In this document: in pieces, positions 37,422-46,150 of the stretch
How positions within the stretch are numbered: the first letter of the stretch is position 1
How the letters are laid out: each line of letters begins with the position of its first letter
Assembly: GCF_037076455.1 (NCBI RefSeq)
Contig: NZ_AP028679.1
Coordinates: forward strand, 1,255,501-1,319,500
DNA: 64,000 nt
Reading direction: 5' to 3'
Source of the DNA: Desulfoferula mesophila
GTDB lineage: Bacteria > Desulfobacterota > Desulfarculia > Desulfarculales > Desulfarculaceae
Notes under the pieces: generated by a model
The model's database searches: none
Told to the model about the DNA's origin: nothing
Seen by the model: the letters and a program-made list of their open reading frames with translations, nothing else
Made by a program: the position numbers and the translations under genes

Positions 37422-39194
37422 ATGCCCAAGCTGCCAGATCCCAGAGAAAACGCTGATTACATAATCGCGGAGGCAGCCGAAGAGTACATGAAGCCCATCA
37501 AGGATATCGCCAGCGAGCTGGGGATAACCGATGAAGAGCTTCTGCTGCACGGTCACTACGTGGCCAAGGTGGACTTCAAAAAGCTGCTCGAGCGGCTCAA
37601 GGACAAGCCGGACGGCAAGTACATCGACGTGACCGCCATTACCCCCACCCCTCTGGGCGAGGGCAAATCCACTTCCTCCATGGGCCTGGTCGAGGGTCTG
37701 GGCCAGCGCAAGGTCAACGTGACCGCGGCCATTCGCCAGCCCTCCGGCGGCCCCACCATGAACATCAAGGGTTCGGCGGCCGGCGGCGGCTTGGCCCAGT
37801 GCATCCCCTTGACCCCCTTCAGCCTGGGTCTGACCGGCGACATCAACGCCATCATGAACTCCCACAACCTGGCCATGGTGGCTCTGAACTCCCGCATGCA
37901 GCACGAGCGCAACTACACCGACGAGCAGCTCATGCGCCTGAGCAACATGGAGCGCCTGGACATCGATCCCACCAACATCGAGATGGGCTGGATCATCGAC
38001 TTCTGCTGCCAGGGCCTCAGGAACATCGTGATGGGCCTGGGCGGCCGCACCGACGGTTTCACCATGCAGTCCAAGTTCGGCATCGCGGTGAGCTCCGAAG
38101 TCATGGCCATCCTGGCCGTGGCCAAGGACCTGGCCGACATGCGTGAGCGCATGGGCAAGATCGTGGTGGCCTACAACAAGAAGGGCGTGCCCATCACCAC
38201 CAAGGACCTGCAGGTGGACGGCGCCATGACCGCCTGGATGGTCGAGGCGCTCAACCCCAACCTGCTGCAGTCCCTGGAAGGCCAGCCGGTGTTCGTGCAC
38301 GCCGGTCCCTTCGCCAACATCGCCATCGGCCAGAGCTCCATTATCGCCGACCGCGTGGCCCTGAAGCTGGGCGACTACCACGTGACCGAGTCCGGCTTCG
38401 GCGCGGACATCGGCTTTGAGAAGTTCTGGAACCTCAAGTGCCGCTTCAGCGGCCTGAAGCCCAACTGCGCGGTGGTGGTGGCCACCATCCGGGCCCTGAA
38501 GTGCCACGGCGGCGCCCCCATCCCGGTGCCCGGCAAGCCCATGCCCGAAGAGTACAAGGGCGAGAACGTGGGCTGGGTCGAGAAGGGCTGCGAGAACCTG
38601 GTGCACCACATCAACACCGTGCGCAAGGCCGGCATCAACCCGGTGGTGTGCATCAACGCCTTCTACACCGACACCGACGCCGAGATCGCCAAGGTGCGCG
38701 AGCTGGGTGAGGCGGCCGGCGCCCGCGTGGCCCTGTCGCGCCACTGGGAGCACGGCGGCGAAGGCGCCCTGGAGTTCGCCGACGCGGTCATCGACGCCTG
38801 CAACGAGCCCAACGACTTCAAGCTGCTCTACGAGCTGGAGACCCCGCTGCGCGAGCGCATCAACCTGATCGCCAAGGAAGTCTACGGCGCCGACGGCGTG
38901 GACTACTCCGACGTGGCCCTGGGCAAGGCCAAGAAGATCGAGGCCGATCCCGAGCTGTCCAAGCTGGGCACCTGCATGGTCAAGACCCACCTGTCGCTTA
39001 GCGACAACCCGGCCCTCAAGGGCGTGCCCAAGGGCTGGCGCCTGTTCGTGCGCGACATCCTCACCTACGGCGGCGCCGGATTCGTGGTGCCCGTGGCCGG
39101 CAACATCTCCCTGATGCCCGGCACCGGCTCCAACCCCGCCTACCGTCGGGTGGACGTGGACGTCGAGTCCGGCAAGGTCAAGGGCGTGTTCTAG
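37422..39194 (+). CDS. fhs: Formate-tetrahydrofolate ligase
   Basis: 590 residues. The ATP-binding loop [15 protein letters not shown] and the folate-pocket segment [19 protein letters not shown] are intact; length is close to the usual 555-590. It joins formate to THF with ATP, or makes ATP in the reverse direction, in the methyl branch of the Wood-Ljungdahl pathway. Strong ribosome site AAGGAGGAAG. Codon use is highly biased, consistent with high expression. It is followed by its own terminator, so it is separate from the hdrA operon. Confidence 0.97.
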
Positions 39195-39422: not shown

Positions 39423-39563
39423 GCCGATCGTTGATTAATGTTACTATTCCGAGGTATTTAATGACAATTTTCACAAGGGGGCAGGCGACCTGTACCCAGT
39501 GAGCAGTCCCTGATCCGCCGGGCGTCTGGCCCGGTGGAAAACCGCTTGCAAGGACGAATTGGA

Positions 39564-42500
39564 ATGGCACAAAGCAAGAAAGTCGGGGCGGTGATGGTAG
39601 TGGGCGCCGGTATCGCCGGCGTGCAGGCCTCGTTGGACCTGGCCAACGCGGGCTACTACGTCTACCTGGTGGAGAAAACCACGGCCATCGGCGGCCGCAT
39701 GGCCCAACTGGACAAGACCTTCCCCACCAACGACTGCGCCATGTGCATTATCTCGCCCAAACTGGTGGAGTGCGGACGCCACCTGAACATCGAGATCCTC
39801 ACCCAGGCCGAGGTGGCCGCCATCTCCGGCGAGCCCGGCGACTTCCAAGTGGAGGTGCACCAGGAGCCCCGCTTCGTGGACATGGAGGCCTGCACCGCCT
39901 GCGGCGACTGCATCGAGTCCTGTCCGGTGTCCTTGCCCAACGAGTTCGACCAGGGCCTGAGCCAGCGCAAGGCCACCTTCAAGCGCTACGCCCAGGCCTT
40001 CCCCAATGCCTACGGCATCACCAAGCTGGACCAAGCCCCCTGCTCGGTCACCTGCCCGGCCAACCTCAACGTGCAGGGCTACGTGCAGATGGCCAAGGTG
40101 GGCAAGTTCGCCGAGAGCCTGGGCATCATCATGAAGGACCTGCCCCTGCCCGGCACCATCGGGCGCATCTGCCCCCATCCTTGCGAGGACGCCTGCCGCC
40201 GCCTGAGCGTGGACGAGGCCATCGCCATCCGCGACATCAAGCGCCTGGTGGCCGACGAGGTGGGGGTGGCCAACGTGCCCCAGCCCGAGGTTGAGCCCCG
40301 GAGCGAAAAGGTGGCCATCGTGGGCGCCGGCCCGGCCGGCCTGTCCTGCGCCTACCACCTGGCCAGGGGCGGCATCAAGTCGGTGATCTACGAGGCCCTG
40401 CCCGTGGCCGGCGGCGCCCTGGCCACCGGCGTGCCCGCCTACCGCCTGCCCCGCCAGGCCCTGGCCCAGGAAGTGGCCATGATCGAGGGCATGGGGGTGG
40501 AGATCAAGCTCAACACCCCCATTGGGGGGGACATCAGCTTCGCGGACCTGCAAAACGACTACGACGCGGTGTTTTTGGGCGTGGGCGCCCCGGCCAGCTT
40601 CAAGCTGAACGTGGCCGGCGAGGACAGCGCCAACGTGGCCACCGCCCTGGGTTACCTGCAGGATCTCAGCCTGGGCAACGCGGTGCCCAAGGGCGACAAC
40701 GTGGTGGTGGTGGGCGGCGGCAACGTGGCCATCGACGCCGCGCGCAGCGCCCTGCGCGAGGGCGCGGCCAACGTTACCATGGTCATGCTGGAGTCGGAAC
40801 AAGAGTGCCCGGCCAGCCCCTGGGAGGTGGAAGAGGCCCTGGAAGAGGGCATCACCATGTTCCACCGCCGGGGCGTGTTGGCCATCAACACCAGCGGCAA
40901 CCAGGCCACCGCCCTGGTGCTCAAGAAGTGCACCCGGGTCTTTGACGAGAACAAGCGCTTCGCGCCCGAGTTCGACGAGAGCGACACCATCGAGCTCGAG
41001 GCCGACCTGATCATCACCGCCATCGGCCAGCGCACCGACCTCTCCTTCCTGGGCGAGGACTCGGGGCTGGAACTGACCCCCCGAGGCACCATCGCCGCCG
41101 ACCCCTTGACCCGGGCCACCAACCTGGACAAGGTCTTCGCCGGCGGCGACGCGGTCACCGGGCCCTGGATCGCCATCGGGGCGGTGGCCGCCGGACGCGA
41201 CGCGGCCATCAGCATGCTGCGCAAGTTCGACGGCCTGGACCTGGCCGAAGGCCGGGCCAAGCCCGAGCTCAAGCCCGAGGACGAGCAGTGCTTCAACCCC
41301 ATCCCACTGGATATCACCATCGCGCCCCGGGCCCATATGGAGATCCGCGAGGCCGACAGCCGCAAGGGCGACTTCGAGCAGTTCGAGCTGGGGCTCACCG
41401 CCGAGCAGGGACAGCAGGAGGGCGAGCGCTGCCTCAACTGCGCCGTGTGCTGCGAGTGCTTCCAGTGCGTGGAGGCCTGCAAGGCCCACGCCCCGGCCCA
41501 CGAGCAGACGGCCCGCGAGCTGACCCTCAACGTGGGCAGCGTGATCCTGGCGCCGGGCTTCGAGCCCTTTGACCCGGCCATCTTCGACACCTACTCCTAC
41601 GCCAAGCACCCCAACGTGCTCTCGGCCATGGAGTTCGAGCGGGTGCTAAGCGCCTCCGGCCCCTACCAGGGCCACCTCCAGCGGCCCAGCGACGGGGCCG
41701 AGCCCAAGAAGATCGCCTGGCTGCAGTGCGTGGGCAGCCGCGACATCAACCACTGCGACAACGGCTACTGCTCGGCGGTGTGCTGCATGTACGCCATCAA
41801 GGAGGCGGTGATCGCCAAGGAGCACGCCTCCGAGGAGCTGGACGCCACCATCTTCTTCATGGACATGCGCACCTACGGCAAGGACTTCGAGAAGTACTAC
41901 AACCGGGCCGAGAACGAGAAGGGGGTGCGCTTCGTGCGCTCCCGCGTGCACTCGGTGGACCCGGCCGAGGACGACCGCCTGCGCATCGAATACGTCACCG
42001 AGGACGGCGAACCCAAGGAAGAAGAGTTCGACATGGTGGTGCTGTCGGTGGGCCTGCAGACCGGCCCCGAGGCCATCGAGACGGCGCACCGCCTGGGCAT
42101 CGACCTCACCGGCTACAACTTCAGCGAGACCAGTTCCTTCGCCCCGGTGGGCACCAGCCGGGAAGGCATCTTCGCCTGCGGCGCCTTTGCCGGTCCCAAG
42201 GACATCCCCCAGGCGGTGATGGAGGCCTCCGCCGCCGCCTGCGTGGCCAGCCTGGATCTGGCCGAGGCCCGGGGCAGCCTGAGCAAGGAAGTCTCCTACC
42301 CCATGGAAAAGGACGTGAGCGACGAGCAGCCCCGGGTGGGGGTGTTCGTGTGCAACTGCGGCATCAACATCGGGGGCATCGTGGACGTGCCCGCGGTGCG
42401 CGAGTACGCCGCCACCTTGCCCTACGTGGCCTTTGTGGACGACAACCTGTTCACCTGCTCCCAGGACACCCAGAACAAGATCAAGGAAAAGATCGAGGAG

Positions 42501-43988
42501 AACAACCTCAACCGGGTGGTGGTGGCCTCTTGCAGCCCCCGCACCCACGAGCCCATGTTCCAGGAGACGATCCGCGAGGCGGGCCTGAACAAGTACCTGT
42601 TCGAGATGGCCAACATCCGCGACCAGGACTCCTGGGTGCACCAGGGCGAGCCGGAAAAGGCCACCGCCAAGGCCAAGGACCTAGTGCGCATGGCCGTGGC
42701 CAAGGCCACCCTCATCGAGCCGCTGCACCAGGTGGAGCTGCCCCTGGAAAAGAGCGCCATCGTGGTGGGCGGCGGCGTGGCCGGCATGAGCGCGGCGCTC
42801 AACCTGGCCGGCGCGGGCTATCCGGTGCACCTGGTGGAAAAGAGCGGCGAGCTGGGCGGCAACGCCCGCTACCTGCTCAACTCCTGGAAGGGCGAGGCCG
42901 TGGCCCCCTACCTGGAGGAGTTGGTGGGCAAGGTCAACGCCCAGCCCAACATCACCGTGCACCTGAACAGCGAACTCACCGCCTTCAAGGGCTTCGTGGG
43001 CAACTACGTGAGCAGCATAACCGCCGAGGGCGGCAAGGAGACCACCGTGGAGCACGGGGTCATCGTGCTGGCCACCGGCGGCCACGAGCTGAGGCCCAGC
43101 GAGTACCTCTACGGCCAGAGCGACGCGGTGATCACCTCTCTCGAGATGGACATGGAGCTCAAGGGCAACCCCGACGCGCCCAAGGCCTGGGACTCGGTGG
43201 CCTTCATCCAGTGCGTGGGCTCCCGCGAGCCCGAGCGGCCCTATTGCAGCCGTTTGTGCTGCACCCACTCGGTGGAGAGCGCCATCAAGGTCAAGGAGGC
43301 CAACCCCGAGGCCAACGTGTACATCCTCTACCGCGACATCCGCACCTACGGGGTGCGCGAGGATCTGTACAAGAAGGCCCGCGAGGCCGGGGTGCTGTTC
43401 ATCCGCTACAACCTGGACGACAAGCCCCAGGTGAGCGAGGAGGGCGGCAAGCTGACGGTTACCGCCACCGACCACGTGCTGGGCCGCCCGGTCAGCTTCG
43501 ACGTGGACCGGCTGGTGCTGGCCGCGGCCATCGTGCCCAACGAGGTGCACAAGCTGGCCGAGGCCATGAAGACCCCGCTCAACGCCGAGGGCTTCTACCT
43601 GGAGGCCCACGCCAAGCTCCGGCCGGTGGACTTCGCCACCGAGGGCCTGTACCAGGCGGGCCTGGCCCACTATCCCAAGCCCATCGATGAGGCCATCGCC
43701 CAGGCCAACGCCGCGGCAGGACGGGCCATGACCGTGCTGGCCAAGAGCGTCATCCGCGTGGGCGGCGTGGTAGCCACGGTGGACCCCAAGAAGTGCTCGG
43801 TGTGCCTCACCTGCGTGCGCACCTGCCCCTACGGGGTGCCCAAGATCGTGGACGGCGCGGCCCACATCGAGGTGGCCCAGTGCTACGGCTGCGGAGCCTG
43901 CGCCGCCGAGTGTCCGGGCAAGGCCATTACCCTGCAACACTTCACCGACGCCCAGATCCTGGCCAAGGAACGGGCTGCGATGAACTGA
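39564..43988 (+). CDS. hdrA: Giant HdrA-like electron-transfer protein with inserted GltD-like module
   Basis: 1474 residues from ATG 39564, about twice a normal HdrA. Order: an HdrA FAD fold (VMVVGAGIAGVQASLDLANAG, residues 10-30; NDCAMCIISPKLVECG, 56-71), an Fe-S site (CTACGDCIESCP, 110-121), then an inserted GltD/NfnB-like part (CPHPCEDACRR, 203-213; VAIVGAGPAGLS, 250-261; VVVVGGGNVAID, about 385) to near residue 555. The rest of the first HdrA follows (CLNCAVCCECFQC near 628). A second, complete HdrA starts near 924 (VGVFVCNCGINIGG; FAD fold near 1065) and ends with two ferredoxin sites (CSVCLTCVRTCP, CYGCGACAAECP). It probably bifurcates or confurcates electrons between NAD(P)H, ferredoxin and the downstream MetVF via MvhD. 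Confidence 0.92.
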   Translation: MAQSKKVGAVMVVGAGIAGVQASLDLANAGYYVYLVEKTTAIGGRMAQLDKTFPTNDCAMCIISPKLVECGRHLNIEILTQAEVAAISGEPGDFQVEVHQEPRFVDMEACTACGDCIESCPVSLPNEFDQGLSQRKATFKRYAQAFPNAYGITKLDQAPCSVTCPANLNVQGYVQMAKVGKFAESLGIIMKDLPLPGTIGRICPHPCEDACRRLSVDEAIAIRDIKRLVADEVGVANVPQPEVEPRSEKVAIVGAGPAGLSCAYHLARGGIKSVIYEALPVAGGALATGVPAYRLPRQALAQEVAMIEGMGVEIKLNTPIGGDISFADLQNDYDAVFLGVGAPASFKLNVAGEDSANVATALGYLQDLSLGNAVPKGDNVVVVGGGNVAIDAARSALREGAANVTMVMLESEQECPASPWEVEEALEEGITMFHRRGVLAINTSGNQATALVLKKCTRVFDENKRFAPEFDESDTIELEADLIITAIGQRTDLSFLGEDSGLELTPRGTIAADPLTRATNLDKVFAGGDAVTGPWIAIGAVAAGRDAAISMLRKFDGLDLAEGRAKPELKPEDEQCFNPIPLDITIAPRAHMEIREADSRKGDFEQFELGLTAEQGQQEGERCLNCAVCCECFQCVEACKAHAPAHEQTARELTLNVGSVILAPGFEPFDPAIFDTYSYAKHPNVLSAMEFERVLSASGPYQGHLQRPSDGAEPKKIAWLQCVGSRDINHCDNGYCSAVCCMYAIKEAVIAKEHASEELDATIFFMDMRTYGKDFEKYYNRAENEKGVRFVRSRVHSVDPAEDDRLRIEYVTEDGEPKEEEFDMVVLSVGLQTGPEAIETAHRLGIDLTGYNFSETSSFAPVGTSREGIFACGAFAGPKDIPQAVMEASAAACVASLDLAEARGSLSKEVSYPMEKDVSDEQPRVGVFVCNCGINIGGIVDVPAVREYAATLPYVAFVDDNLFTCSQDTQNKIKEKIEENNLNRVVVASCSPRTHEPMFQETIREAGLNKYLFEMANIRDQDSWVHQGEPEKATAKAKDLVRMAVAKATLIEPLHQVELPLEKSAIVVGGGVAGMSAALNLAGAGYPVHLVEKSGELGGNARYLLNSWKGEAVAPYLEELVGKVNAQPNITVHLNSELTAFKGFVGNYVSSITAEGGKETTVEHGVIVLATGGHELRPSEYLYGQSDAVITSLEMDMELKGNPDAPKAWDSVAFIQCVGSREPERPYCSRLCCTHSVESAIKVKEANPEANVYILYRDIRTYGVREDLYKKAREAGVLFIRYNLDDKPQVSEEGGKLTVTATDHVLGRPVSFDVDRLVLAAAIVPNEVHKLAEAMKTPLNAEGFYLEAHAKLRPVDFATEGLYQAGLAHYPKPIDEAIAQANAAAGRAMTVLAKSVIRVGGVVATVDPKKCSVCLTCVRTCPYGVPKIVDGAAHIEVAQCYGCGACAAECPGKAITLQHFTDAQILAKERAAMN

Positions 43989-44076
43989 GATAATTTGGCG
44001 GCGGCGGCCCCCGGGCCGCCGCCATCACCTGCCGCTGACCCGCCCCCAGGGGCGGAAGGGGACCAGGAGGACGAAC

Positions 44077-44502
44077 TTGAACGCTGAGTTTGAACCGAAG
44101 ATAGTGGCCTTCTGCTGCCAGTACTGAGCGTACTCCGCCGCGGACCTGGCAGGTTCGATGAGATTGCAGTACCCCACCAACGTGCGAGTCATCCAGTTGC
44201 CCTGCTCCGGGCGGGTGGACATCTTGCACCTGCTGCGCTCCTTTGAAGACGGCGTGGACGGCGTGTACGTGGCCGGTTGCATGGAAGGCGATTGCCACTT
44301 CCTCACCGGCAACCTCAAGGCGCGGCGCAAGGTGGAATACGTCAAAAAGGTTTTGGAGTCGCTGGGCATCGAGCCCGAACGCATCGAGATGTACAACATG
44401 AGCTCGGCCCAGGGACCCCGCTTCGCGGAAGTGGCCAACGAGTTCACCCAGCGCATCAAGGAGCTGGGACCCAGCCCGGTGCGATCGGCCAAGGCGGCCT
44501 AG
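44077..44502 (+). CDS. mvhD: MvhD-type iron-sulfur subunit, selenocysteine-containing
   Basis: 141 residues if the TGA at 44125-44127 is read as selenocysteine (residue 17). Start TTG 44077, with AGGAGG (44065-44070) six bases upstream. The 27 codons before the later ATG 44158 translate to FEPKIVAFCCQY-U-AYSAADLAGS, matching the N-terminus of MvhD, where a cysteine-rich segment normally holds a [2Fe-2S] cluster. From 44158 on the frame is normal MvhD (CSGRVD, VAGCMEGDCHFLTGN). Starting at 44158 would delete this cluster site. MvhD links HdrA to hydrogenase or, as in acetogens, to MetF. The gene is 88 bases behind hdrA and 56 before metV. Confidence 0.9.
44141..44157 (+). promoter_or_regulatory. 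Bacterial SECIS-like hairpin in mvhD
   Basis: Seven-pair stem (CGGACCT with AGGTTCG, one G-U pair) and a GGC loop. The loop begins 21 bases behind the TGA, inside the usual 16-37 base window, and carries G in the first two positions, as bacterial SECIS elements do. Confidence 0.75.
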
Positions 44503-44558: not shown

Positions 44559-45227
44559 ATGATCGTAGGTGACAGCAAGCCCTTGGAGGAGATCCTGTCC
44601 ATGATCGAGGGGCGGGAAAAGGTCCTGGTGTTGGGCTGCCGGGGGTGCGTGACCGTCTGCAACGTGGGCGGCGAAAAGGAAGTGGGCATCCTGGCCAGCG
44701 CCCTGCGCATAGCCCGCAAAAAGGCGGGCCTGCCCCCCACCGTGGAAGAGATGACCCTGGAGCGCCAGTGCGATCCCGAGTACGTCGAAGAACTGGCCGA
44801 CGTGGCCGATAAATACGACGCCATCGTCTCCATCGCCTGCGGGGTGGGGCCCCAGTTCGTGGCCGAGCGCTTCCAGAAGGTGCCGGTGTTTCCGGGCATC
44901 AACACCACCTTCATCGGCGGGGCCTTGGAGCACGGGGTCTGGGCCGAGCGCTGCCAGAGCTGCGGCAACTGCCTGGTGCACAACTTCGGCGGCCTCTGCC
45001 CCATCGCCCGCTGCTCCAAAAGCCTGATGAACGGCCCTTGTGGCGGCTCGGCCTCGGGCAACTGCGAGATCAGCCCGGAGGTGCCCTGCGTGTGGGACCA
45101 GATTGTCCAGAAAATGAGCGCCATGGGCAGGCTGGAGGAGTTGGAGCAGGTGTGGCCCAACAAGAACTGGTTGACCGCCCGCGACGGCGGCCCCCGCAAG
45201 CGGGTTAGGGAGGACCTCAAGCAATGA
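44559..45227 (+). CDS. metV: Methylene-THF reductase zinc/Fe-S subunit MetV
   Basis: 222 residues. Cysteine motifs CRGCVTVC (near residue 27), CQSCGNCLVHNFGGLCPIARC (near 131-151) and GPCGG identify MetV, the partner of MetF in acetogens and other anaerobes. MetV carries zinc and Fe-S sites and is needed for MetF activity. Its stop overlaps the metF start by four bases (ATGA), so translation is coupled. Confidence 0.92.
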   Translation: MIVGDSKPLEEILSMIEGREKVLVLGCRGCVTVCNVGGEKEVGILASALRIARKKAGLPPTVEEMTLERQCDPEYVEELADVADKYDAIVSIACGVGPQFVAERFQKVPVFPGINTTFIGGALEHGVWAERCQSCGNCLVHNFGGLCPIARCSKSLMNGPCGGSASGNCEISPEVPCVWDQIVQKMSAMGRLEELEQVWPNKNWLTARDGGPRKRVREDLKQ

Positions 45228-46150
45228 AAGCCGGCAGCAATCTGGAAAAGGTGCTCTCCGCTGGCCACTTTGCGGTTACCGGCGAGCTTGGTCCGCCCCA
45301 GGGCAACAACGCGGAGGAGGTGCGCCACAAGGCCGGCTTCCTCAAGGGCATCGTGGAGTCGGTTAACATCACCGACAACCAGACCGCGGTGGTGCGCATG
45401 GCCTCTTGGGCCGCCTGCAAGATCCTCATCGACGAGGGCCTGGAGCCCAACTATCAGATGGTCTGCCGCGACCGCAACCGCCTGGCCCTGATGGCCGACA
45501 TCCTGGGGGCCACCGCCCTGGGCATCAAGAACGTGCTGTGCCTCTCCGGCGACCACCAGCGCTTCGGCAGCCATCCCGAGTCCAAGAACGTCTACGACCT
45601 GGACTCGGTGCAGCTCCTGGCCGCCTTCAAGAAGATGCGCGACGAAAAGAAGTTTTTGAACGACAAGGATCTGGACGGCTCGCCCGACCTCTTCTTGGGC
45701 GCGGCCTCCAACCCCTTTGCCGATCCCTTCGAGTTCCGGGTTTCCCGCCTGGCCAAGAAGATCGCCGCCGGGGCCGACTTCGTGCAGACCCAGTGCATCT
45801 ACAACATGGACAAGTTCCGCCTGTTCATGAAGCAGGCGGTGGACCGGGGCCTGCACGAGAAGTGCTACATCCTGGCCGGGGTCACCCCCATGAAGTCGGT
45901 GGGTATGGCCAAGTACATGGCCAAGTTCGTGCCGGGCATGGACGTGCCCGAGTCGGTGGTCAAGCGCCTGCAAGGGGTGGACAAGAAGCAGCAGGCCGCC
46001 GAGGGCATCAAGATGGCCATCGAGCAGATCGAGGAGTTCAAGGAGATGGAGGGCGTGGCCGGGGTGCACGTCATGGCCATCGAGTGGGAGCATCGGGCCA
46101 AGGAGATTATTGAGGGCGCGGGGCTGCTGCCCCGGCCGGTGGTCGATTAA
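45224..46150 (+). CDS. metF: 5,10-methylenetetrahydrofolate reductase MetF
   Basis: 308 residues. A TIM-barrel flavoprotein with VTGELGPPQGNN at the start, CLSGDHQRFGSHPESKNVYD and FVQTQCIYNMDKFRLF further on. It interconverts methylene-THF and methyl-THF. With MetV, MvhD and the double HdrA it forms an operon like the MetF-HdrABC-MvhD set of Moorella, but without HdrB and HdrC. Repeat copy B and a terminator follow. Confidence 0.95.
   Translation: MKAGSNLEKVLSAGHFAVTGELGPPQGNNAEEVRHKAGFLKGIVESVNITDNQTAVVRMASWAACKILIDEGLEPNYQMVCRDRNRLALMADILGATALGIKNVLCLSGDHQRFGSHPESKNVYDLDSVQLLAAFKKMRDEKKFLNDKDLDGSPDLFLGAASNPFADPFEFRVSRLAKKIAAGADFVQTQCIYNMDKFRLFMKQAVDRGLHEKCYILAGVTPMKSVGMAKYMAKFVPGMDVPESVVKRLQGVDKKQQAAEGIKMAIEQIEEFKEMEGVAGVHVMAIEWEHRAKEIIEGAGLLPRPVVD

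Follow-up and report, generated by a model that had tools for sequence, protein, structure and literature searches.

A predicted selenocysteine in the second CxxC position of MvhD, encoded between HdrL and metVF in Desulfoferula mesophila

Analysis of a 64,000-nucleotide stretch of the Desulfoferula mesophila genome (the window) indicates with high confidence that its mvhD gene encodes a selenoprotein, in which selenocysteine (Sec) would be put in at the UGA at 44125 by means of a downstream hairpin and which most likely links the electron flow of HdrL and MetVF. At the sequence level, this reading combines a read-through frame, a conserved TGA, selection on the hairpin RNA, a Sec machinery in the genome and a conserved set of neighboring genes. 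Sec-containing MvhD proteins have been described before, both in methanogens and in sulfate reducers, and this gene is an added member of that family.

The in-frame TGA and the Fe-S site of MvhD

The features of the gene are as follows.

44065–44070, plus strand: AGGAGG ribosome-binding site of mvhD, read directly, 6 nt ahead of TTG 44077
44077–44502, plus strand: mvhD (FlpD family), 141 aa in read-through translation, with predicted Sec at residue 17
44125–44127, plus strand: in-frame TGA, predicted to be read as Sec, at the second position of the CxxC (CxxU) motif
44141–44157, plus strand: bacterial-type SECIS hairpin within the coding sequence, from its fold and the conservation of pairs and codons
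44278–44280, plus strand: TGC codon for Cys68, at the column that is the other Sec site in this family (TGA in one paralogue and seven homologues; X in PDB 9sfi chain K)

Read directly from the sequence, the frame opens at TTG 44077, meets the TGA in frame and ends with the stop codon at 44500–44502. The start with its good ribosome-binding site and the TGA-crossed frame, both proposed in the original prediction, are thus in place, and most close orthologues show a purine-rich run followed by TTG, GTG or ATG at the same position or one codon to either side. Translated with Sec at the TGA, the product covers the complete Pfam FlpD profile (PF02662, positions 1–123 of 123, E 2.8e-52), and its score of 176.3 bits against a curated cut-off of 22.3 places it in the FlpD family. 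This full-length match agrees with the earlier claim that the frame runs on into a normal MvhD past the TGA. The score against the NCBIfam VhuD model (NF045873) was 164 bits, which is below the curated cut-off of 215.

The Sec of MvhD aligns to the second cysteine of a conserved CxxC motif, which becomes CxxU, so that the proposed replacement of an Fe-S-site cysteine holds as a column match. The conserved cysteines of this site, one of them as Sec (C14, U17, C43, C68, and C73), are all present, and homologues contain CxxC or CxxU. MvhD/ElpC binds a [2Fe-2S] cluster (PMC12350162), and by analogy with the family Sec17 may bind or adjoin such a cluster. The best match among solved structures is chain K of PDB entry 9sfi, an F420-non-reducing hydrogenase subunit delta (4.7e-41). 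Like the MvhD described here, it has a non-standard residue (X) at the residue-17 column; unlike it, it has a second one at the residue-68 column, where our protein has Cys68. Both X residues are probably Sec.

After identical rows were dropped, the homologue set comprised 33 TGA sequences and 56 non-TGA sequences. The residue-17 column, for which a Cys or U had been anticipated, contains TGA in all 33 distinct orthologues and TGC or TGT in the 56 homologues, exactly at this position. Among 60 scanned genomes, those homologues that are closest to this gene share its TGA, in three families of the class. In a set of named genomes, carriers of the TGA form include Desulfarculaceae, Desulfobacteraceae, Desulfobacca, Syntrophobacterales, and the Olavius Delta 1 symbiont, whereas carriers of the Cys form include Candidatus Adiutrix, Actinomycetota, and Chloroflexota. 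The tree, which is based on a short alignment and has many unresolved forks, requires at least four changes of the residue-17 label on well-supported branches; the two forms have therefore been exchanged more than once.

These comparisons bear on the reading of the TGA as a true stop, with a functional protein starting at ATG 44158, which we consider very improbable. Mechanical ORF calling does yield an ORF from this ATG, as the original prediction had noted for standard gene calling, and the corresponding Met28 is conserved. However, the Cys homologues conserve Met28 just as strongly, although there it is internal; in-frame conservation extends upstream as far as the common start; and a start at 44158 would drop the conserved CxxC segment, within which the TGA lies, as had been claimed. 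The stop-like TGA almost certainly encodes Sec. Standard gene calling removes the metal-site segment of MvhD, so that annotations of this gene and of its relatives would be wrong.

The downstream hairpin and the selenocysteine machinery

The predicted seven-pair hairpin with a GGC loop, 13 nt behind the TGA, was recovered by folding at 44141–44157 (CGGACCU-GGC-AGGUUCG, seven pairs and a 3-nt loop). Its folding energy is ordinary compared with shuffled sequences (z 0.37 for 46 nt, z -1.57 for 21 nt), and the case was therefore made by comparison of homologues. A search of the window against Rfam gave no match.

Over codons 22–26 (44140–44154), synonymous entropy is zero in the 33 distinct TGA orthologues, against 0.81–1.78 bits per codon in the 56 Cys homologues. 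The TGA set uses GCG or GGG, GAC, CTG, GCA, and GGT at these codons, with only one amino-acid change, and no five-codon stretch outside the hairpin approaches this lack of variation. Zero variation was reached in none of 2000 shuffles of the TGA and Cys labels, which ignore relatedness. Furthermore, the inner six pairs are intact in all 33 TGA loci but in just one of the 56 Cys loci, and the outer position is C-G in 25 and G-C in two of the TGA loci (27/33 paired) and C-C in the remaining six. Judged by this comparison, the hairpin sequence is under selection at the RNA level. It is therefore a SECIS element, which argues against a sequencing error.

An error at the TGA, or a Cys codon mutated in a pseudogene, is extremely improbable also on other grounds. 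A single base separates TGA from TGC or TGT and Cys homologues exist, but the frame is kept, and 33 distinct orthologues, taken from many assemblies made independently, have the same TGA. This refutes a sequencing error, the outcome that the original prediction had named as its refutation.

One homologue, from Desulfobacterales bacterium C00003106, has a Cys codon at residue 17 and a near-intact hairpin that is two bases off the TGA type. It sits among the TGA sequences in the tree, as if Sec had recently given way to Cys and the SECIS element had been left behind as a relic.

The complete set of Sec genes that the original prediction called for is found in the genome (4.48 Mb, one contig). 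It contains a gene for tRNA-Sec (selC) with anticodon TCA (71.8 bits, over the Rfam cut-off), as well as selA (E 5.4e-184), selB (E 1.5e-117), and selD (E 1.2e-112), each over its curated cut-off. The selD gene (1501–2427 of its locus) is itself crossed by an in-frame TGA in the context GUAAKIG, which agrees with UxxK, the listed site of selenophosphate synthetase (PMC13188914). Among the scanned genomes with a TGA orthologue, selA is present in 16 of 18, and the other two are only 70–71% complete. In a sister family, whose examined copies have Cys, several genomes of more than 90% completeness lack selA. A decoding of the TGA as Trp or Cys, through reassignment of the stop codon or through near-cognate read-through, shares the support for read-through as such but has a negligible probability, given tRNA-Sec and the full Sec machinery in the genome, a tRNA-Trp with anticodon CCA, a column that alternates with Cys only, and a hairpin that is selected only where the TGA is present.

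We infer that Sec is inserted at residue 17 by the bacterial route. With UGA 44125 on the ribosome, SelB with Sec-tRNA-Sec would bind the hairpin just downstream, Sec would enter in place of the second cysteine of CxxC, and the remainder of MvhD would then be translated.

Neighboring genes and the putative electron path

The order of genes in the window is fhs, HdrL, mvhD, metV, metF, with the following features around mvhD.

37422–39194, plus strand: fhs, formate-tetrahydrofolate ligase, same pathway, upstream (NCBIfam PRK13507, 1117.9 bits against a cut-off of 938)
39534–43988, plus strand: HdrL, a GltD-inserted HdrA of 1484 aa and putative electron partner (HdrA and GltD-type matches)
44559–45227, plus strand: metV (Pfam PF12225, E 2.7e-35)
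45224–46150, plus strand: metF, methylenetetrahydrofolate reductase (Pfam PF02219, E 1.4e-37)

In all 33 TGA orthologues, metV lies downstream and the C-terminal part of HdrA upstream; metF is close downstream in 32 of them, and the other one runs to the contig end. The window thus contains the hdrA-mvhD-metV-metF neighborhood of Hdr-type methylenetetrahydrofolate reductases (MTHFR; HdrABC-MvhD-MetVF of Moorella and Sporomusa), with the HdrA-type gene, mvhD, metV, and metF adjacent and in the same order. It differs from these systems in its GltD-inserted HdrL, in the Sec of MvhD, and in that no hdrB or hdrC was seen between fhs and metF; the complex may accordingly be different here. Pulldown experiments in Sporomusa ovata showed an interaction of MvhD with HdrA/HdrB and MetF (PMC9430772). 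By analogy, these interactions would hold in the present system, with HdrL in the place of HdrA and no hdrBC seen in the cluster. MvhD would then most likely carry electrons between the flavoprotein HdrL, whose gene lies upstream, and MetVF, whose genes lie downstream, the latter acting as methylenetetrahydrofolate reductase in the methyl branch of the Wood-Ljungdahl pathway. The locus connects a selenoprotein with the folate branch through which sulfate reducers fix or oxidize carbon.

Related selenoproteins and the second Sec position

MvhD/VhuD with Sec in a CxxU motif is listed as a selenoprotein family (PF02662; PMC13188914), and the finding is therefore less surprising than first rated. 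Four Sec-MvhD genes, as well as Sec-HdrL genes, are reported for Desulfobacterium autotrophicum HRM2 (PMC2702500), and one Sec-MvhD for Desulfococcus multivorans (PMC5109826). The MvhD/FrhD/VhuD selenoproteins of Methanococcales (VhuD) and Deltaproteobacteria share with our protein the family, the Sec column, and the kind of redox role. In archaeal VhuD, however, the hairpin is in the 3'-UTR, whereas here a bacterial hairpin lies directly behind the UGA, and in methanogens VhuD is associated with hydrogenase or formate dehydrogenase, whereas this mvhD adjoins metVF. Of mild interest is the conserved association of MvhD with MetVF. In the part of the literature covered, we found no statement of Sec in the MvhD of Moorella or Sporomusa and none of a Sec-MvhD specifically beside metVF.

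In sulfate-reducing relatives, the MTHFR electron chain could commonly run via a selenium-containing Fe-S subunit, in which Sec moved between two Cys positions and was gained and lost several times; if true, selenium would tune this Wood-Ljungdahl step, a proposal for which we see about even chances. The exchange of Sec and Cys at two sites of the small MvhD offers a natural series for the role of selenium at an Fe-S site.

The genome encodes 12 FlpD domains, four of which contain an in-frame TGA, three at the residue-17 column and one at the residue-68 column. The latter belongs to a paralogue (3130580–3130978, minus strand; L016) with Cys at residue 17 and TGA at residue 68 (WVSG-U-HPGDC). 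Seven homologues near metV (L110, L113, L118, L123, L124, L128, and L132) likewise have Cys at residue 17 and TGA at residue 68, followed by a 7-bp hairpin with a GGA loop. The stems of this hairpin are ATTTCCT/AGGAAAT in some and ATTACCT/AGGTAAT in others, which is a paired change. Two further hdrA-mvhD-metV-metF clusters are found in the same genome (mvhD at 1903202–1903609, minus strand, and 1336404–1336820, plus strand), of which one has TGA and one Cys at residue 17. Finally, a divergent MvhD paralogue (1945501–1945872, minus strand) has TGA at residue 17, followed by a sequence unlike the hairpin that is frozen in the genes linked to metV.
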